From Candidatus Alcyoniella australis (GTDB lineage Bacteria > Lernaellota > Lernaellaia > JAVCCG01 > Alcyoniellaceae), in the NCBI GenBank assembly GCA_030765605.1, contig JAVCCG010000030.1, positions 1 to 14,837 of the forward strand: a stretch of DNA of 14,837 nucleotides, given 5' to 3'. The notes under the pieces are model-generated. The model had not been told where the DNA came from, did not search any database, and was given only the letters and a program-made list of their open reading frames with translations. Each line of letters starts with the position of its first letter. Within the stretch, counting starts at the first letter, position 1. This document shows positions 5,586-14,837 of this stretch, piece by piece. A program made the translations under genes and the position numbers.

Positions 5586-6830
5586 ATGTTTCGGCTGAAG
5601 CTGCTCTGCGTTCTTATCTGCTTGGCGTCGGTTTTGGTGATCGCACCGGCACAGGCGCGCGTTGTCAAAGCCCCCTACCTTCAGTACGTCACACAAGATG
5701 CGGTCTCGATTCTTTGGGAGACCTCAGTCGCGCAGCAGGACCGCATCGAGTGGGGCCCAAGCGAGGCCCTGGGCAACACCCTTGAGGAGAGCGTGGCCTA
5801 CAAATACCACGAGCAGCGCATCGATGGTTTGGAGCCCGAAACGCTCTACTACTACCGGGCGATCGTGGAGGGCGTACAGGGCGAGATCAAATCATTCGTT
5901 ACCGCGCCCGATGCCTGTTCGCCGTTCAGCTTTGTGCTGTTCGGCGACACCCGCTCCCAGCACCTGCCGCACTCCAAGAATATCGAACGCATCCTCGATG
6001 TTTCTGCGGACTTCGTGATCAACACCGGCGACATCATCGATTCAGAGGAGAGCCAGATTACCAACGAGGTGCGCTGGACCGAGCATTTTCAGATCGAGGC
6101 CGAGCTGCTCGACGAGGTGCCGCTGTTCCCGGTGATGGGCAACCACGACGACGGCACCCAGCAGATCTGGCATCGCATTTTCGCCCTGCCGGGCAACGAG
6201 CTGTACTACCAATTCGATTGGGGCAACTCGCGCTTTATCGTCTGCGACACCCAGCAGCCGATTCTCGATGGCTCCGAGCAGTACGCCTGGCTGGTCAACG
6301 CCCTGGCCGACGCTTACGACGACCCGGACGTGCAGCACGTGTTCGTCAGCTTTCACATTCCGCCATACAGCCACGCGGGGCACGAATCCAACCCGCTGTT
6401 GATCGCGGCGCTGACCCCACTGTTTAAGGAGTACGAAGTACAGGCGGTGCTCAACGGCCACAGTCACAACTTCCAGCACCTGGAGGCGGACGGCGTGCGC
6501 TACTTTATCTCCGGCGGCGGCGGAGCGAGCCTGCAATGCGAGGAGCACGGCATCCCGCAGATGCTCGAATACAGCTGCATGCACCACTACATCGTGATCA
6601 CGATCGACGGCCCGCTGGTGACCCTTGAGGTCTACGATGCGCTGACCAACAGCCGCATCTACTCGACCTTCTGGATGGACGACATGGGCAAGGACCCCTG
6701 CGCCGGGGATGACGACGATCAAATGCCGGACGATGACGATGCGGACGATGACGACGACGACTCGGGGGACGACCACTTCGGCGGCGCGGACGATGATGAC
6801 GACGACGAGAGCTGCTGCGGACGGCTGTGA
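5586..6830 (+). CDS. Secreted purple-acid-phosphatase-like metallophosphoesterase with poly-Asp tail
   Basis: This is a 414-residue exported phosphatase. The first 24 residues are a signal peptide ending in A-Q-A. Residues of about 28-107 form a fibronectin-III-like domain typical of purple acid phosphatases (KAPYLQYVT at the start, LEPETLYYYRA near the end). The metallophosphoesterase core follows, with all five metal-binding blocks visible: GDTR (D121), GD (D149), GNHD (185-188), a histidine in VSFHIPPYS, and GHSHNF. The reaction is expected to be phosphomonoester hydrolysis outside the cytoplasmic membrane. From about residue 371 the protein is a low-complexity tail of Asp runs ending in E-S-C-C-G-R-L. 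GGGAGA at 5575-5580 supports the start. It is divergent from the phosphoesterase lipoprotein across a 176-bp gap, suggesting joint regulation, although I found no clear Pho box there. Confidence 0.87.
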   Translation: MFRLKLLCVLICLASVLVIAPAQARVVKAPYLQYVTQDAVSILWETSVAQQDRIEWGPSEALGNTLEESVAYKYHEQRIDGLEPETLYYYRAIVEGVQGEIKSFVTAPDACSPFSFVLFGDTRSQHLPHSKNIERILDVSADFVINTGDIIDSEESQITNEVRWTEHFQIEAELLDEVPLFPVMGNHDDGTQQIWHRIFALPGNELYYQFDWGNSRFIVCDTQQPILDGSEQYAWLVNALADAYDDPDVQHVFVSFHIPPYSHAGHESNPLLIAALTPLFKEYEVQAVLNGHSHNFQHLEADGVRYFISGGGGASLQCEEHGIPQMLEYSCMHHYIVITIDGPLVTLEVYDALTNSRIYSTFWMDDMGKDPCAGDDDDQMPDDDDADDDDDDSGDDHFGGADDDDDDESCCGRL

Positions 6831-7099: not shown

Positions 7100-7128
7100 T
7101 TGACACCTGCTAAGTGCGTCAATAGCCT
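7100..7128 (+). promoter_or_regulatory. Candidate promoter for the purN-purH(N) unit
   Basis: A consensus-perfect -35 box TTGACA lies at 7100-7105, with a weak -10 (TAGCCT, 3 of 6) at 7123-7128 after 17 bases. It would start transcription near 7135, upstream of the purN ribosome site. This also argues against translation starting at the ATG at 7128. Confidence 0.4.
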
Positions 7129-7157
7129 TGGCCGATCGAAAAAGATGGAGAGATTGG

Positions 7158-7805
<648 letters not shown>

Positions 7806-7830: not shown

Positions 7831-8514
7831 ATGGCGGTGAACTTCGTTGAAAAGGTTGACGATCGGGTCAAAATCCAACACGCGCTGATCAGCGTCAGCG
7901 ATAAGACCGGCCTCGATCAATTGATCCCGGCCCTGGTGGCGGTCAATCCGTCGATTCGCATTTTCTCCACCGGCGGCACCTACAAGGCGATCGAGCGCAT
8001 CCTGGGCGAGGGCGCGGGGGCCAACCTGACCCAGGTCAGCGATTACACCGGCCAGCCCGAGACCCAGGGCGGCCTGGTCAAGACGCTGGATTTTAAGATC
8101 TACCTCGGGCTGCTGACCGAGACCTACAACGACGATCATCAGGGCGATTTGCAGCGCACCGCGGCCGCGGCCATCGACCTGGTGGTGGTCAACCTCTACC
8201 CGTTCTCCGCCACCGTGGCCCAGGCCGACGTGACCGTGGAGATGGCGCGGGCCAACATCGATATCGGCGGCCCGTGCATGGTGCGCGCTTCGGCCAAGAA
8301 CTATCTGCGCGTGACCTCGGTGACCGATCCGGCTGACTATTCGCAGCTGATCGAGCAGCTGCGGGCCGGGGGCGGCGGCCTGACCATCGCCCAGCGCTTC
8401 GAGTACGCGCGCAAGGCTTTTGCCCATACGGCCCAATACGACAAGGCGATCTCCGAGTATCTGGCCGGACAAGATCCCGAGGCGTTGTCAACGGTCTATA
8501 CCCTGGCCGACTGA
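7831..8514 (+). CDS. purH: Stand-alone IMP cyclohydrolase (N-terminal half of PurH)
   Basis: This 227-residue protein corresponds to the MGS-like IMP cyclohydrolase domain that normally forms the first 200 or so residues of bifunctional PurH; it closes FAICAR to IMP, the last step of purine synthesis. Visible motifs are ALISVSDKTGLDQL at the start, STGGTYKAIE, the VKTL nucleotide-binding turn, DLVVVNLYPF and NIDIGGPCMVRASAKN. The canonical KTLHPKIHGG is changed to KTLDFKIYLG. The frame ends with a true stop after the linker helix (AFAHTAQYDKAISEYL), exactly where the transformylase domain would begin. That domain is encoded separately at 9927-11177 on the other strand. GGGAGAG at 7820-7826 is the ribosome site. 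The gene is co-transcribed with purN. Confidence 0.87.
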   Translation: MAVNFVEKVDDRVKIQHALISVSDKTGLDQLIPALVAVNPSIRIFSTGGTYKAIERILGEGAGANLTQVSDYTGQPETQGGLVKTLDFKIYLGLLTETYNDDHQGDLQRTAAAAIDLVVVNLYPFSATVAQADVTVEMARANIDIGGPCMVRASAKNYLRVTSVTDPADYSQLIEQLRAGGGGLTIAQRFEYARKAFAHTAQYDKAISEYLAGQDPEALSTVYTLAD

Positions 8515-9926: not shown

Positions 9927-11177
9927 TCAGTGCTTGAAGCTGCGATGGCCGGTAAAGACCATTGTCGCGCCAACCTCGTTGCAGGCCTCGATCGACTGAT
10001 AGTCGTTGATCGATCCTCCGGGCTGGATCACCGAGCGCACTCCCTGGCTTAGCCCGATGTCGATGCCGTCGCGGAACGGGAAGAACGCATCGCTGACCAT
10101 TGTTGCACCCTTGAGCCCGCCGTTGATTGCGGCCACGTCGGCCTCGATTGCTTCGCGTTGTTGTGGGTCGTCGACAAGGCTGAAGTTTTTGTTGTGGCGC
10201 TCGAACGCCAGGCGATCACTCAGCTTGCGGTACGCCTTGTCGCGGGCGATCTCGGCCACGCCCACGCGGTCCTGCTCGCCGGTGCCGATGCCCACGGTCA
10301 CGCCGTCCTTAACGTAGAGCACCGAGTTCGAGGTGACGCCGGCCTCGACCATCCAGCCGAAGAGCATGTCCTCGTATTCGGCGTCGGTCGGCGTGCGCTG
10401 CACTTGATAGTGTTGGCCTTTGTATTCGGTCTGCGCCGCCATCAGTCCCTCGCGGGTGCGCGGCTGGGGCACGAACGATAGCTGGGCGATCAGCGAGCCG
10501 TCGATCAGGCTCTTGAAATCGACGAAGCGCTCGCTGGCGAACTCGTTCAGTCGTGCGATGTTGCCGATGCGCATAATTCGCAAGTTCTTGCGTCGGGCGA
10601 GGATCTCGACCGCGCCGGACTCGAACTCCGGCGCCACTACCACCTCGGCGTAGCGCTCGGAGATCGCCTCGGCCGTGGCCTTGTCCACCGCGCGGTTCAG
10701 GGCGATGCACCCCCCGAATGCGGCCACATGGTCCGCCAGATCGGCCTTGAGGTAGGCCCCGCACAGCGAGTCGTCCACCGCCACGCCCGAGGGGTTGTTG
10801 TGCTTCATGATCGTTACGGCCGGACGATCTGTGAGATAGCGCAGGATGTTCAGTGCGTTGTCCGCGTCAGTGAGGTTGATTTTGCCCGGGTGCTTGCCGA
10901 ACTGCAGCAGCTCGGCGTCGCACACCAGGTAGCGCCCCGGCGCGATGGTTTGCACATCGCCCAGCACCAGGTTGCCGTTGACCGGCTTGAACAGCGCGGC
11001 CTGCTGGCCCGGGTTCTCGCCGTAGCGCAGTCCTTTGCTCTCGTCGCCGATTACCCAGCTGACTTTTTCGTAGAACATCGTCTGGCGCTTATCCCCGGAG
11101 ATAAAGCTGATCTCCATCTGCTCGGGAAACTGCTCGTCGATAATCGTGCGATACGCTTTTTTCAGGTCCTGGGCCAC
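9927..11177 (-). CDS. purH: Stand-alone AICAR transformylase (C-terminal half of PurH)
   Basis: This 416-residue enzyme formylates AICAR with 10-formyl-tetrahydrofolate to give FAICAR, the substrate of the IMP cyclohydrolase at 7831-8514. It contains only the transformylase domain of PurH. Motifs are LRYGENPGQQ near residue 50, the catalytic K-H in MKHNNPSGVA, AAFGGCIALN, SNSVLYVKDG, GTGEQDRVGVAEIA, SDAFFPFRDGID and the terminal TGHRSFKH. The start is GTG at 11175-11177, preceded by GGAGG with 9 bases between them; the ATG at 11192 is out of frame. The short N-terminal stretch DLKKAYRTIIDEQFPEQ looks like the PurH inter-domain helix, so the split lies in the linker. The gene follows panB by 50 bases on the minus strand and is probably in one operon with it. 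Confidence 0.9.
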   Translation of the reverse strand: MAQDLKKAYRTIIDEQFPEQMEISFISGDKRQTMFYEKVSWVIGDESKGLRYGENPGQQAALFKPVNGNLVLGDVQTIAPGRYLVCDAELLQFGKHPGKINLTDADNALNILRYLTDRPAVTIMKHNNPSGVAVDDSLCGAYLKADLADHVAAFGGCIALNRAVDKATAEAISERYAEVVVAPEFESGAVEILARRKNLRIMRIGNIARLNEFASERFVDFKSLIDGSLIAQLSFVPQPRTREGLMAAQTEYKGQHYQVQRTPTDAEYEDMLFGWMVEAGVTSNSVLYVKDGVTVGIGTGEQDRVGVAEIARDKAYRKLSDRLAFERHNKNFSLVDDPQQREAIEADVAAINGGLKGATMVSDAFFPFRDGIDIGLSQGVRSVIQPGGSINDYQSIEACNEVGATMVFTGHRSFKH

Positions 11178-11227: not shown

Positions 11228-12061
11228 CTAGATCTTGTCGAATTCCTTGTCGGGCATGGTGAAGGTGTGCTCCGCCGCCGGGAACTGCTTGGCCTTGACT
11301 TGCGCCACGTAGTCCTTGGCCGCGGCCACGATCTGCGGCCCGATTTCGGCGAACTTCTTAACGAACTTGGGGCTGAATCCTGATTTGATCCCGAGCATGT
11401 CGTGGACCACCAGCACCTGGCCGTCGGCGTCGACTCCCGCGCCGATGCCGATGATCGGGATGCTCAGCTGCTCGGAGATCAGCTTGGCCAGCCGGTCGGG
11501 CACGCATTCGAGCACCAGCATGAAGGCTCCGGCCTGCTCGATGGCCAGCGAATCCTCGAGGATGATTCGCGCCCGGTCGGCGGTGCGCCCCTGGACGCGG
11601 TAGCCGCCGATCATGCCCGCGGTCTGCGGTGTCAGGCCCAGGTGGCCGACCACCGGTATGCCCGATTGGACCAGCGCGCCGATTATCTCGATCATACGGC
11701 CGCCGCCCTCGAGCTTGACCGCGTCGCAGTTGCCTTCCTTGATAAAGCGCGTGGCGTTGACAATCGCCTGCTCGACCGACGCGTTGTAGCTGCCAAAGGG
11801 CATGTCGCCGATCAGCATCGCGTAGCTGAGCCCGCGGCTGACCGCACGGGTGAGCACCAGCAGCTCGTCCATGGTTACCGGCAGTGTGTCGCGGTAACCC
11901 AGCACCACGTTGGCCGCGCTGTCTCCGACCAGGATTGTTTCGACCCCGGCCTCGTCGAGCATCAGTGCCGTGGGATAGTCGTAGGCCGTAAGCATCGTGA
12001 TTTTCTCGCCATCGCTTTTGGCCTTGTTCAAGTACCCGATGTCCACTTTCTTACGTTTCAT
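11228..12061 (-). CDS. panB: 3-methyl-2-oxobutanoate hydroxymethyltransferase
   Basis: This enzyme uses 5,10-methylene-tetrahydrofolate to hydroxymethylate alpha-ketoisovalerate to ketopantoate, the committed step of pantothenate and CoA synthesis. It has 277 residues, a normal length. Family motifs are complete: ITMLTAYDYPTA, VGDSAANVVLGY (Mg-binding Asp), DMPFGSY, VKLEGG, VGHLGLTPQ, LECVP (catalytic Glu) and IGIGAG..DGQVLVVHDMLG. The start ATG at 12061 has GGGGAG at 12073-12068 with a 6-base spacer. It leads a minus-strand unit with AICAR transformylase and is divergent from the SHMT-GcvT gene. Its leader is about 160 bases if the promoter at 12232-12259 is real, and that leader is structured. 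No panC or panD is adjacent. Confidence 0.93.
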   Translation of the reverse strand: MKRKKVDIGYLNKAKSDGEKITMLTAYDYPTALMLDEAGVETILVGDSAANVVLGYRDTLPVTMDELLVLTRAVSRGLSYAMLIGDMPFGSYNASVEQAIVNATRFIKEGNCDAVKLEGGGRMIEIIGALVQSGIPVVGHLGLTPQTAGMIGGYRVQGRTADRARIILEDSLAIEQAGAFMLVLECVPDRLAKLISEQLSIPIIGIGAGVDADGQVLVVHDMLGIKSGFSPKFVKKFAEIGPQIVAAAKDYVAQVKAKQFPAAEHTFTMPDKEFDKI

Positions 12062-12326: not shown

Positions 12327-12392
12327 GTGGCCTGCCTCGCCTGTCCACTAAGACGGCAAATCACCGAATCGCACAAATAGAGGTGCAATCAC

Positions 12393-14837
12393 ATGCCCAA
12401 AAAGCTGATTCCGGATTTTCTTTTCGACGACGACGTTGAGAAGTTCGACCCGCTGTTCGCCGAGTTGGTCCGCTGCGAGTCCGGACGCCAGACGCGCCAG
12501 ATCAACCTGATTCCGTCCGAGAGCGTCTGTGCCTGGCCCGTACGCAAGGTGCTCGACTCGCCGTTCACCAACCTCTACGCCGAGGGCTATCCGCCCACGG
12601 CCTTTGTTAAGAAGAACGAGGAACAGCTTTCGGACGTCGACTTCAACCTCGCGCACTTTCGCCGCTACGCCGACCGTCGATTCTATAAGGGCAACGCCTA
12701 TGTCAACCTGGTCGAGGCGATCTGCCGCAAGCGCGCGGCCCAGTGCTTTGCCAACCAGCGCGTGGCCGCCGACCAGATCTGGGCCAACGTCCAGCCGCTG
12801 TCCGGCGCGGCCGCCAACCTGGCGGTCTACGAGGCGTTTCTGAAGATCGGCGATCGGCTGATGACCATGGACCTGATGCAGGGCGGCCACCTGAGCCACG
12901 GCAGCCAGTTCCACATGAGCGGCAAGCGCTACCAGATAATTCCCTACGGGGTCGATGCGCGTACCGAGGTCTTTGATTACGACGAGATCCGCCGCATCGC
13001 CCTGGAGAACCGGCCGAAGATGATCGTCGCCGGATTCACCTCATACCCCTGGGCGCCGGACTGGGCCAAGTTCCGCGCGATCGCCGACGAGTGCGGCGCA
13101 ATGCTGATGGCCGACATCGCCCATCCCGCGGGCCTGGTGGTGGCCGGGGCCTACCCCAGCCCCGTGGGTTATGCCGACGTGATCACCTTCACCACCCACA
13201 AGACCCTGATGGGGCCGCGCGGCGCGGTGATTCTGACAACCGACGAGGATCGGGCCAAGAAAATCGACACTGCGGTGTTCCCCGGCGAGCAGGGCGGTCC
13301 GCACATGAACAACATCGCCGCCCTGGCCGTGGCCTTCAAGCTGGCGGCCACCGACGAGTTCAAGCAGCTCCAGCACAAGATCGTGGCCAACGCCAAGCTG
13401 TTCTACGAGGAGCTGCAGCGGCTGGGCCTGCGCATCAGCTACAGCGGCTCGGACACGCACTTGTTCCTGATCGACCTCAAGCCCCTGGCGCGCAAGGGCA
13501 AGCCGATGCTCTACGGCGAGCCCGCGGCCCGAATCCTCGAACTGGCCGGGATCGTGCTCAACAAAAACACCATCCCCGGCGACAAAGCCACGGCCATGGC
13601 CTCGGGCCTGCGCATCGGCACGCCGTGGATCACCCAGCGCGGAGCGGGCGAGGCCGAGATCAAACGCCTGGCCGAGCTGATCCACCGCGTGCTGGTCAAC
13701 ATCGAGCCCTTTGTCTACCAGGGCGTGACCCGGCGGCTGCCGCGCGGCAAGATCGACGTTACGATCCTCGACCAGGTGACCCACGAGGTCGACGAACTGA
13801 CCCGCACGCTCAGCCCCAGCTCCGAGCGCTTTAGCGGCTACCCGCACTACCCGTTCCTCGACGAGACCCCGGAGCAGCCGCTGCTGGTCAAGATCCGCGG
13901 CGAGCGCGCTCAGGCCTTTTTACAGTGCCTGGTGACCGACGACCTGACCAAGCTCGAGCCGGGCAAGGCGATCAATACGCTGCTGCTCGACCGCGAGGCC
14001 AACGTGGCGGCCGAGGTCGGCGTGGCGCGGTTGGAGTCCGACCAGCGCTCGGTGCAGCGTTTCGCGCTCAGCGCCGGACCGCAACGTGCCGACTGGATCT
14101 ACAAGTGGCTGTGCGGCAATGCCGACGGCTACCTGCTGTTCGAGCCCGATAATGTGATCTCCAAGGTCGAGGGCCCGGTGGCCATCGAGCGCATTGCGCC
14201 GGACTCGCCCGAGGCTCAGATTCTGGCCGAGCTGCCCGCGCTTGATGCGGCGCTGATCGGCAAGCCCGCGGCCGAGATCTACGGCCAGAGCCCGGAGCGT
14301 TTCGCGGTCTACAAACCGTTCTTCGTCGGCCAGTACGCTTTGGCCGATTTGGTGGAGCAGCCGACCGACCGCGTGGAGTTCAAATGGGAGCAGCCCGAGA
14401 CCGGGCTGCTGCGCACGCCGTTGTATGAGGAGCATCTGCGCCTGGGCGGCAAGATGGTGCCCTTCGCCGGTTGGGAGATGCCCGTGCGCTACGGCTCGAC
14501 CATCGACGAGCATAACGCGGTGCGCCAGAACGCCGGGCTGTTCGACGTGGCGCACATGGGCGTATTAGAGATCAGCGGCCCGCATGCCCAGGATCTGATC
14601 GATCTGGTGGTGAGCAACTACGTGCGCTGGTTCTCGGACAACATCTCGTTCTACAGCTACGTGCTGGGCATCGACGGCAAGGTGCTCGACGACGTGATGG
14701 TCTATCGCATGCACGTCGATCGCTTCCTGATGGTGGTCAACGCGTCCAACGAGGACAAGATCTGGGCCTGGATCAACCTGGTCAACGACGGCAAGGCGCT
14801 GATCGACCGCAGTTGGCCGATCCGCAGCCGGATGCAG
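12393..14837 (+). CDS. glyA-gcvT: Serine hydroxymethyltransferase fused to GcvT-like segment and aminomethyltransferase (partial)
   Basis: This frame is open for 815 codons to the window edge, so the C-terminus is missing. Residues of about 25-465 are SHMT, which converts serine and tetrahydrofolate to glycine and 5,10-methylene-THF: NLIPSES, YAEGYP (62-67), NVQPLSG, GGHLSHGS, D241 and H244 in ADIAHPAG, the PLP lysine K270 in TTHKTLMGPRG, and the substrate Arg R407 in GLRIGTP. A 26-residue insertion sits between YAEGYP and FYKGN. Residues of about 495-670 resemble a worn GcvT/YgfZ folate-binding module (AQAFLQCLVTDDLTKLEPG). From about 675 a normal GcvT begins (TPLYEEH, FAGWEMPV, GLFDVAHMG) with the catalytic-loop D766-D767 in KVLDDVMVY. 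GcvT releases methylene-THF from aminomethylated GcvH. The start ATG at 12393 has AGAGGTG 7 bases upstream. Confidence 0.9.
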   Translation, partial: MPKKLIPDFLFDDDVEKFDPLFAELVRCESGRQTRQINLIPSESVCAWPVRKVLDSPFTNLYAEGYPPTAFVKKNEEQLSDVDFNLAHFRRYADRRFYKGNAYVNLVEAICRKRAAQCFANQRVAADQIWANVQPLSGAAANLAVYEAFLKIGDRLMTMDLMQGGHLSHGSQFHMSGKRYQIIPYGVDARTEVFDYDEIRRIALENRPKMIVAGFTSYPWAPDWAKFRAIADECGAMLMADIAHPAGLVVAGAYPSPVGYADVITFTTHKTLMGPRGAVILTTDEDRAKKIDTAVFPGEQGGPHMNNIAALAVAFKLAATDEFKQLQHKIVANAKLFYEELQRLGLRISYSGSDTHLFLIDLKPLARKGKPMLYGEPAARILELAGIVLNKNTIPGDKATAMASGLRIGTPWITQRGAGEAEIKRLAELIHRVLVNIEPFVYQGVTRRLPRGKIDVTILDQVTHEVDELTRTLSPSSERFSGYPHYPFLDETPEQPLLVKIRGERAQAFLQCLVTDDLTKLEPGKAINTLLLDREANVAAEVGVARLESDQRSVQRFALSAGPQRADWIYKWLCGNADGYLLFEPDNVISKVEGPVAIERIAPDSPEAQILAELPALDAALIGKPAAEIYGQSPERFAVYKPFFVGQYALADLVEQPTDRVEFKWEQPETGLLRTPLYEEHLRLGGKMVPFAGWEMPVRYGSTIDEHNAVRQNAGLFDVAHMGVLEISGPHAQDLIDLVVSNYVRWFSDNISFYSYVLGIDGKVLDDVMVYRMHVDRFLMVVNASNEDKIWAWINLVNDGKALIDRSWPIRSRMQ

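Follow-up and report, generated by a model that had tools for sequence, protein, structure and literature searches.

In well-studied bacteria, serine hydroxymethyltransferase (SHMT) and the T protein of the glycine cleavage system (GcvT) are separate proteins. Two kinds of described enzymes come close to a combination of both. Formiminotransferase-cyclodeaminase and C1-THF synthase are bifunctional, with two folate-using activities per chain, and channelling has been reported for each of them. Dimethylglycine oxidase, the heterotetrameric sarcosine oxidase alpha chain and TMAO demethylase contain a one-carbon-releasing enzyme together with a GcvT-like THF-binding domain. The gene described here is located in a stretch of 14,837 nucleotides of Candidatus Alcyoniella australis (the window, which is contig C30) and encodes SHMT and GcvT on a single chain. 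It resembles the first kind as a probable bifunctional enzyme, but the enzymes themselves are unrelated to it. It shares with the second kind the joining of a one-carbon-releasing enzyme to a GcvT domain, but the partner is the PLP-dependent SHMT instead of a flavin or other demethylase; GcvT-domain fusion enzymes of the dimethylglycine oxidase type appear among the PDB matches of its GcvT part, which nevertheless matches true T proteins best. No relevant description of SHMT/GcvT or glyA/gcvT fusions was found in the open-access literature, and the fusion goes unmentioned in open-access papers covering related pathways.

The original prediction, made from the letters of the window, proposed SHMT and GcvT in one uninterrupted frame, and this is borne out: the frame has no stop, encodes 815 aa, leaves through the contig end, and shows Pfam matches to both enzymes (an SHMT domain and two GCV_T stretches, 2e-45). 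A search of the contigs of the same genome located the remainder of GcvT on a terminus of contig C113; this terminus shares exactly 127 identical bp with the window end, an overlap that looks like an assembler k-mer break. Joining both contigs provides the stop codon that was to be sought beyond the window and gives a complete protein, whose domain order is SHMT (1-470), a degenerate half GcvT (~487-660) and a complete GcvT (~673-1040). Features and coordinates are listed in Table 1.

Table 1. Location of the fusion gene, its parts and other genes mentioned in the text (window coordinates unless another contig or locus is given).
Feature	Position	Strand	Remarks
Shine-Dalgarno-like GAGGTG	12380..12385	+	7 nt upstream of ATG, read from sequence
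SHMT-GcvT fusion gene, first 815 codons	12393..14837	+	1,081 aa in total after joining C113
SHMT enzyme, residues 1-470	12393..13802	+	PF00464 2e-122; PLP lysine K270 at 13200-13202
Insert of ~28 residues (68-95) between GYP and RFYKG	12594..12677	+	Absent from canonical SHMT
Degenerate half GcvT, residues ~487-660	13851..14372	+	GCV_T stretch, model, graded series in relatives
GcvT, N-terminal part	14409..14837	+	D766-D767 at 14688-14693; rest on C113, complement of about 80038-80838
Folate-user cluster	7128-7802, 7831-8511, 9930-11177 (-), 11231-12061 (-)		PurN-like, split PurH, PanB
Calcineurin-like phosphoesterase	5586-6827		Long Asp-rich C-terminal tail
gcvH and gcvPA of the same genome	G000:C61:14986-15345 and 15390-16721		Adjoining
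GcvT-SHMT chain of G043	L042:5262-7913	-	883 residues

The SHMT part reaches 426.7 bits as GlyA (PF00464, NF000586/PRK00011), for which the cut-off is 335, its nearest solved chains are ordinary SHMTs, and the PLP lysine and the other catalytic residues are kept. D241, H244, K270 and R407 occupy the positions that had been predicted and, like E43, Y62, Y66, Y98, S137, H166, R276 and N390, are identical in 66 of the 66 fused-family SHMTs aligned. Both the curated model score and these four PLP-site residues, plus E64 and Y98, place the domain among the SHMTs. It differs from GlyA by the insert of about 28 residues ahead of RFYKG, a C-terminal extension and the presence of GcvT on the same chain. 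The insert, which is conserved across the fused family, is seen as a jump from residue 69 to 96 in the alignment with solved SHMTs, and it adjoins the tyrosine that is located at the folate site in the E. coli SHMT (Y64/Y65). The second-best SHMT model for the fusion is that of the long-type SHMT PRK13580 (NF010094), which covers the C-terminal extension; however, the fusion is outside this type, with 303.5 bits against a cut-off of 735, and the model, of 496 positions, stops at the SHMT extension. The predicted structure of a full-length relative (L067) shows a pLDDT of 91 and a pTM of 0.89, and that of the 815 residues of the window a pLDDT of 84.5 and a pTM of 0.81. The N-terminal part of the L067 model superposes on solved SHMTs with Z up to 53.9 and rmsd of 1.6 A (Foldseek, VIA-align), and overall with Z of about 50 and rmsd of 1.3-2.6 A. 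Since SHMT entries fill the matches of this whole-model fold search, it informs on the SHMT part and is silent on the remainder of the chain.

The GcvT part (PF01571, TIGR00528) was predicted to be canonical and to have the D766-D767 pair, and it is so. The joined protein shows a complete C-terminal GCV_T domain with the DD motif and every conserved residue tested, including those of the folate site in the PDB alignment, where D767 aligns to position 96 of the solved Thermotoga T-protein chain. Y754, D766, D767, Y771, N783, N786, Y883, E886, E891, R921, D922 and R925 are identical in the 64 fused-family GcvTs (64/64). Pfam recognises this C-terminal barrel weakly, and the relative L128 exceeds the TIGR00528 cut-off. 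The partners that a T protein needs to be assigned as such, gcvH and gcvP, are present in the same genome. Its difference from other T proteins is that it is tied at its N-terminus to SHMT, via the degenerate half GcvT. This middle stretch went unrecognised in the original prediction; it has a GCV_T match at 13887-14201 (model positions 51-154, 7e-8), and in the structural model its strands and helices succeed one another as they do in the N-terminal half of the complete GcvT. Among relatives, the middle copy ranges from nearly complete, with 245 bits in L068 and 222 in G033, to eroded, with 36 bits in the genome of the window, and the DD motif is mostly absent from the eroded copies. Median pairwise identity in the fused family is 57% for SHMT, 49% for GcvT and 29% for the middle domain. 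The plainest reading is an SHMT-GcvT-GcvT ancestor whose middle copy has since decayed, and the middle half T domain is probably dead.

The distribution of the fusion was analysed in 60 relatives, then in 386 diverse genomes and then in a scan with one genome per species. A fusion-type SHMT is found in nine of the 386 diverse genomes, in long frames in all of them (that of the window being cut by the contig). The expectation that both enzymes are separate genes in most bacteria therefore holds for the broad sample but not for the phylum of G106, where 70 of 100 genomes carry the fusion-type SHMT; by similarity to named loci, this phylum is probably Bipolaricaulota. The scan kept 80 loci, 65 of them with complete frames, and 62 of these 65 have both enzymes in one chain, mostly in Chloroflexota (Anaerolineae) and Bipolaricaulota. 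The three others are L072, which meets a contig end, L121, which meets a run of N, and L096, which is split. In the latter (L096:138-3234), a Ratteibacteria MAG, SHMT and the middle domain plus GcvT are in two overlapping frames, either a natural split or a sequencing frameshift. By NCBI title, which can be wrong for MAGs, 48 belong to Chloroflexota, 13 to Bipolaricaulota and the remainder to Spirochaetota, Aerophobota, 'Deltaproteobacteria' and others. It is a genuine and ancient fusion that occurs in many little-studied bacterial phyla. Databases probably file these proteins under the name of one half, because the fusions pass the SHMT cut-off and L128 also passes that of GcvT.

Fused SHMTs form one clade (SH-aLRT 100) in a tree with 25 stand-alone SHMTs, and fused GcvTs lie on one side of a branch (SH-aLRT 76), with subclades that match those of the SHMT tree; both trees are quick ones, without bootstraps. 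This fits a single fusion event, after which the whole unit would have been inherited, and the fusion may have been transferred between phyla. The sister family f2 (G001, G003 and G005), of the same class, has its SHMT as a separate, divergent protein (L044-L046), and its GcvT gene (L039, L040 and L041) encodes about 150 residues ahead of the middle domain and GcvT. These N-terminal residues align to SHMT columns 333-467, the C-terminal domain, with an hhalign E of 3.8e-5 and a probability of 71% in a comparison of thin alignments (3 and 5 sequences); none of 200 column shuffles reaches the f2 score (best 33.9 vs 40.4). Since the f2 GcvT retains the middle domain and this faint remnant of the C-terminal SHMT domain, the f2 lineage has probably discarded the catalytic SHMT domain of an originally fused protein, a likely rather than certain reading. 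Separate glyA and gcvT genes in close relatives had been named as a result that would speak against the fusion; f2 does have a separate SHMT, but it reads as a loss from an already fused gene. A further chain, in G043, has GcvT at its N-terminus and a divergent SHMT after it, in a genome that also encodes a canonical SHMT. In the SHMT and GcvT trees, the two parts of this chain lie outside the fused clade, which indicates an independent origin of this reverse-order fusion, so that on these trees the link appears to have evolved two or more times, with either enzyme first. A search for further reverse-order fusions gave G043 alone, in a phylum represented by two genomes.

Neither the genome of the window nor any of the eight other fusion genomes tested has a GcvT besides the fusion. 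The fusion is also the only SHMT in the genome of the window, G002, G004, G006, G106, G244 and G372, as well as in the cultured Pelolinea submarina MO-CFX1 and Bellilinea caldifistulae GOMI-1. G033, G180 and the genomes of L064 and L068 additionally encode a canonical SHMT, so that some fusion genomes do not depend on the fusion alone for SHMT. The gcvH and gcvPA genes of the genome of the window are elsewhere, on C61. G033 shows gcvH-gcvPA-gcvPB-lplA directly 3' of the fusion and G180 shows gcvH 3' of it; gcv genes beside the fusion were rejected as a general rule, because most of the 80 public loci lack them in the vicinity. Additional GcvH-like proteins are encoded in pairs, mostly as frames of about 220-285 aa, apart from the true gcvH at G000:C85 and G000:C109, and also in G002, G004, G006 and G003. 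Regarding one-carbon supply, serA is present in the genome of the window, and formate-THF ligase (PF01268) has no match in it (G000) or in G002, G004 and G006. The reductive glycine pathway was consequently rejected as the reason for the fusion in this genome, and serine is the likelier one-carbon source. Several other fusion genomes do have formate-THF ligase and could run in the opposite direction. Beside the fusion, the window contains a cluster of folate users: a PurN-like formyltransferase, a PurH split into two genes on opposite strands (the cyclohydrolase part and the AICAR transformylase part) and PanB, which uses methylene-THF. By eye, the split PurH and panB also seem to be near the fusion in G002 (L037). 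The same lineage has predicted lipoproteins with Asp runs like those in the tail of the phosphoesterase of the window.

The genome of the window has its sole SHMT and its sole T protein on one chain that has long been conserved and whose catalytic residues are intact, while gcvH and gcvPA are encoded elsewhere; both activities, the direction of flow and the recapture of folate are what we infer for it. The single gene probably encodes a bifunctional folate enzyme, by which one THF pool is loaded and unloaded at two sites. The N-terminal SHMT would interconvert serine plus THF and glycine plus 5,10-methylene-THF, and the C-terminal T protein would transfer the aminomethyl carbon from the lipoyl arm of the H protein to THF, yielding methylene-THF and NH3, with the half T domain as a folded spacer between them. 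The fusion would fix a 1:1 ratio, with two folate sites per chain, and since both sites share the THF/methylene-THF pair, (poly)glutamylated folate released at one could be recaptured by the other; tethering could speed folate reuse. In the genome of the window, SHMT would remove C3 of serine and the remaining glycine would be cleaved by GcvP/H with the T domain of the fusion, for an expected net use of two one-carbon units stripped from serine. Passing of THF or a fixed 1:1 ratio, as originally suggested, is compatible with everything found. Passing of glycine between the sites, suggested along with them, is unlikely, because the substrate of GcvT is the aminomethyl group on the H protein; free glycine is used by GcvP and is not bound by GcvT. 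A stronger version, in which polyglutamyl THF/methylene-THF would be channelled between the sites, the half T domain would be a structural or folate-tail-binding bridge, and the two one-carbon units of serine (or two glycines) would be converted on one particle, is a tentative proposal that we consider rather doubtful.

These readings presuppose a genuine gene with two working halves. The gene is cut by the end of the window contig, and the assembly consists of 157 contigs, as would be seen if two contigs or genomes had been joined within it, but such an artefact or chimaera is extremely improbable: the SHMT/GcvT junction is well within the contig, and identical architecture is present in the single-contig genomes G106 and G244, on the complete isolate chromosome of Pelolinea submarina and in dozens of unrelated assemblies. 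These orthologues in closed and unrelated genomes rule out assembly as the source of the architecture, and the region 13780-14420, where a join had been suspected, is in a single frame here and in eight other genomes of several families. One half might instead not be a working enzyme in vivo, the SHMT being, for example, a folate sensor or the catalyst of another aldol reaction. The insert adjoining an active-site tyrosine and the canonical SHMT kept by some fusion genomes would suit this explanation; however, it is unlikely given that all catalytic residues checked are invariant in 66 sequences and that no other SHMT was found in the genome of the window, the f3 relatives, G106, G244, G372, Pelolinea and Bellilinea.

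The chances are about even that the link serves mainly stoichiometry and co-expression, with independent enzymes, folate moving via solution, no channelling and a decayed spacer in the middle, an explanation that opposes the recapture step only and leaves bifunctionality standing. It agrees with the poor conservation of the middle domain, whose catalytic residues are mostly lost, and with f2, which dropped the SHMT half yet kept GcvT; since a whole family gave up that half, the physical link is not indispensable. On the other hand, the link is retained across many phyla, in nearly all complete frames, and has evolved more than once, with either enzyme first; this exceeds the needs of co-expression, which operons supply too. 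Returning to the bifunctional enzyme, SHMT and the glycine cleavage system are two main one-carbon sources, and direct sharing of folate is an old question. The fusion would be overlooked by annotation pipelines in which a protein takes its name from one of its halves. It may serve as a part for engineered one-carbon pathways, and its presence in several phyla and in cultured strains provides a natural system for tests of folate transfer.
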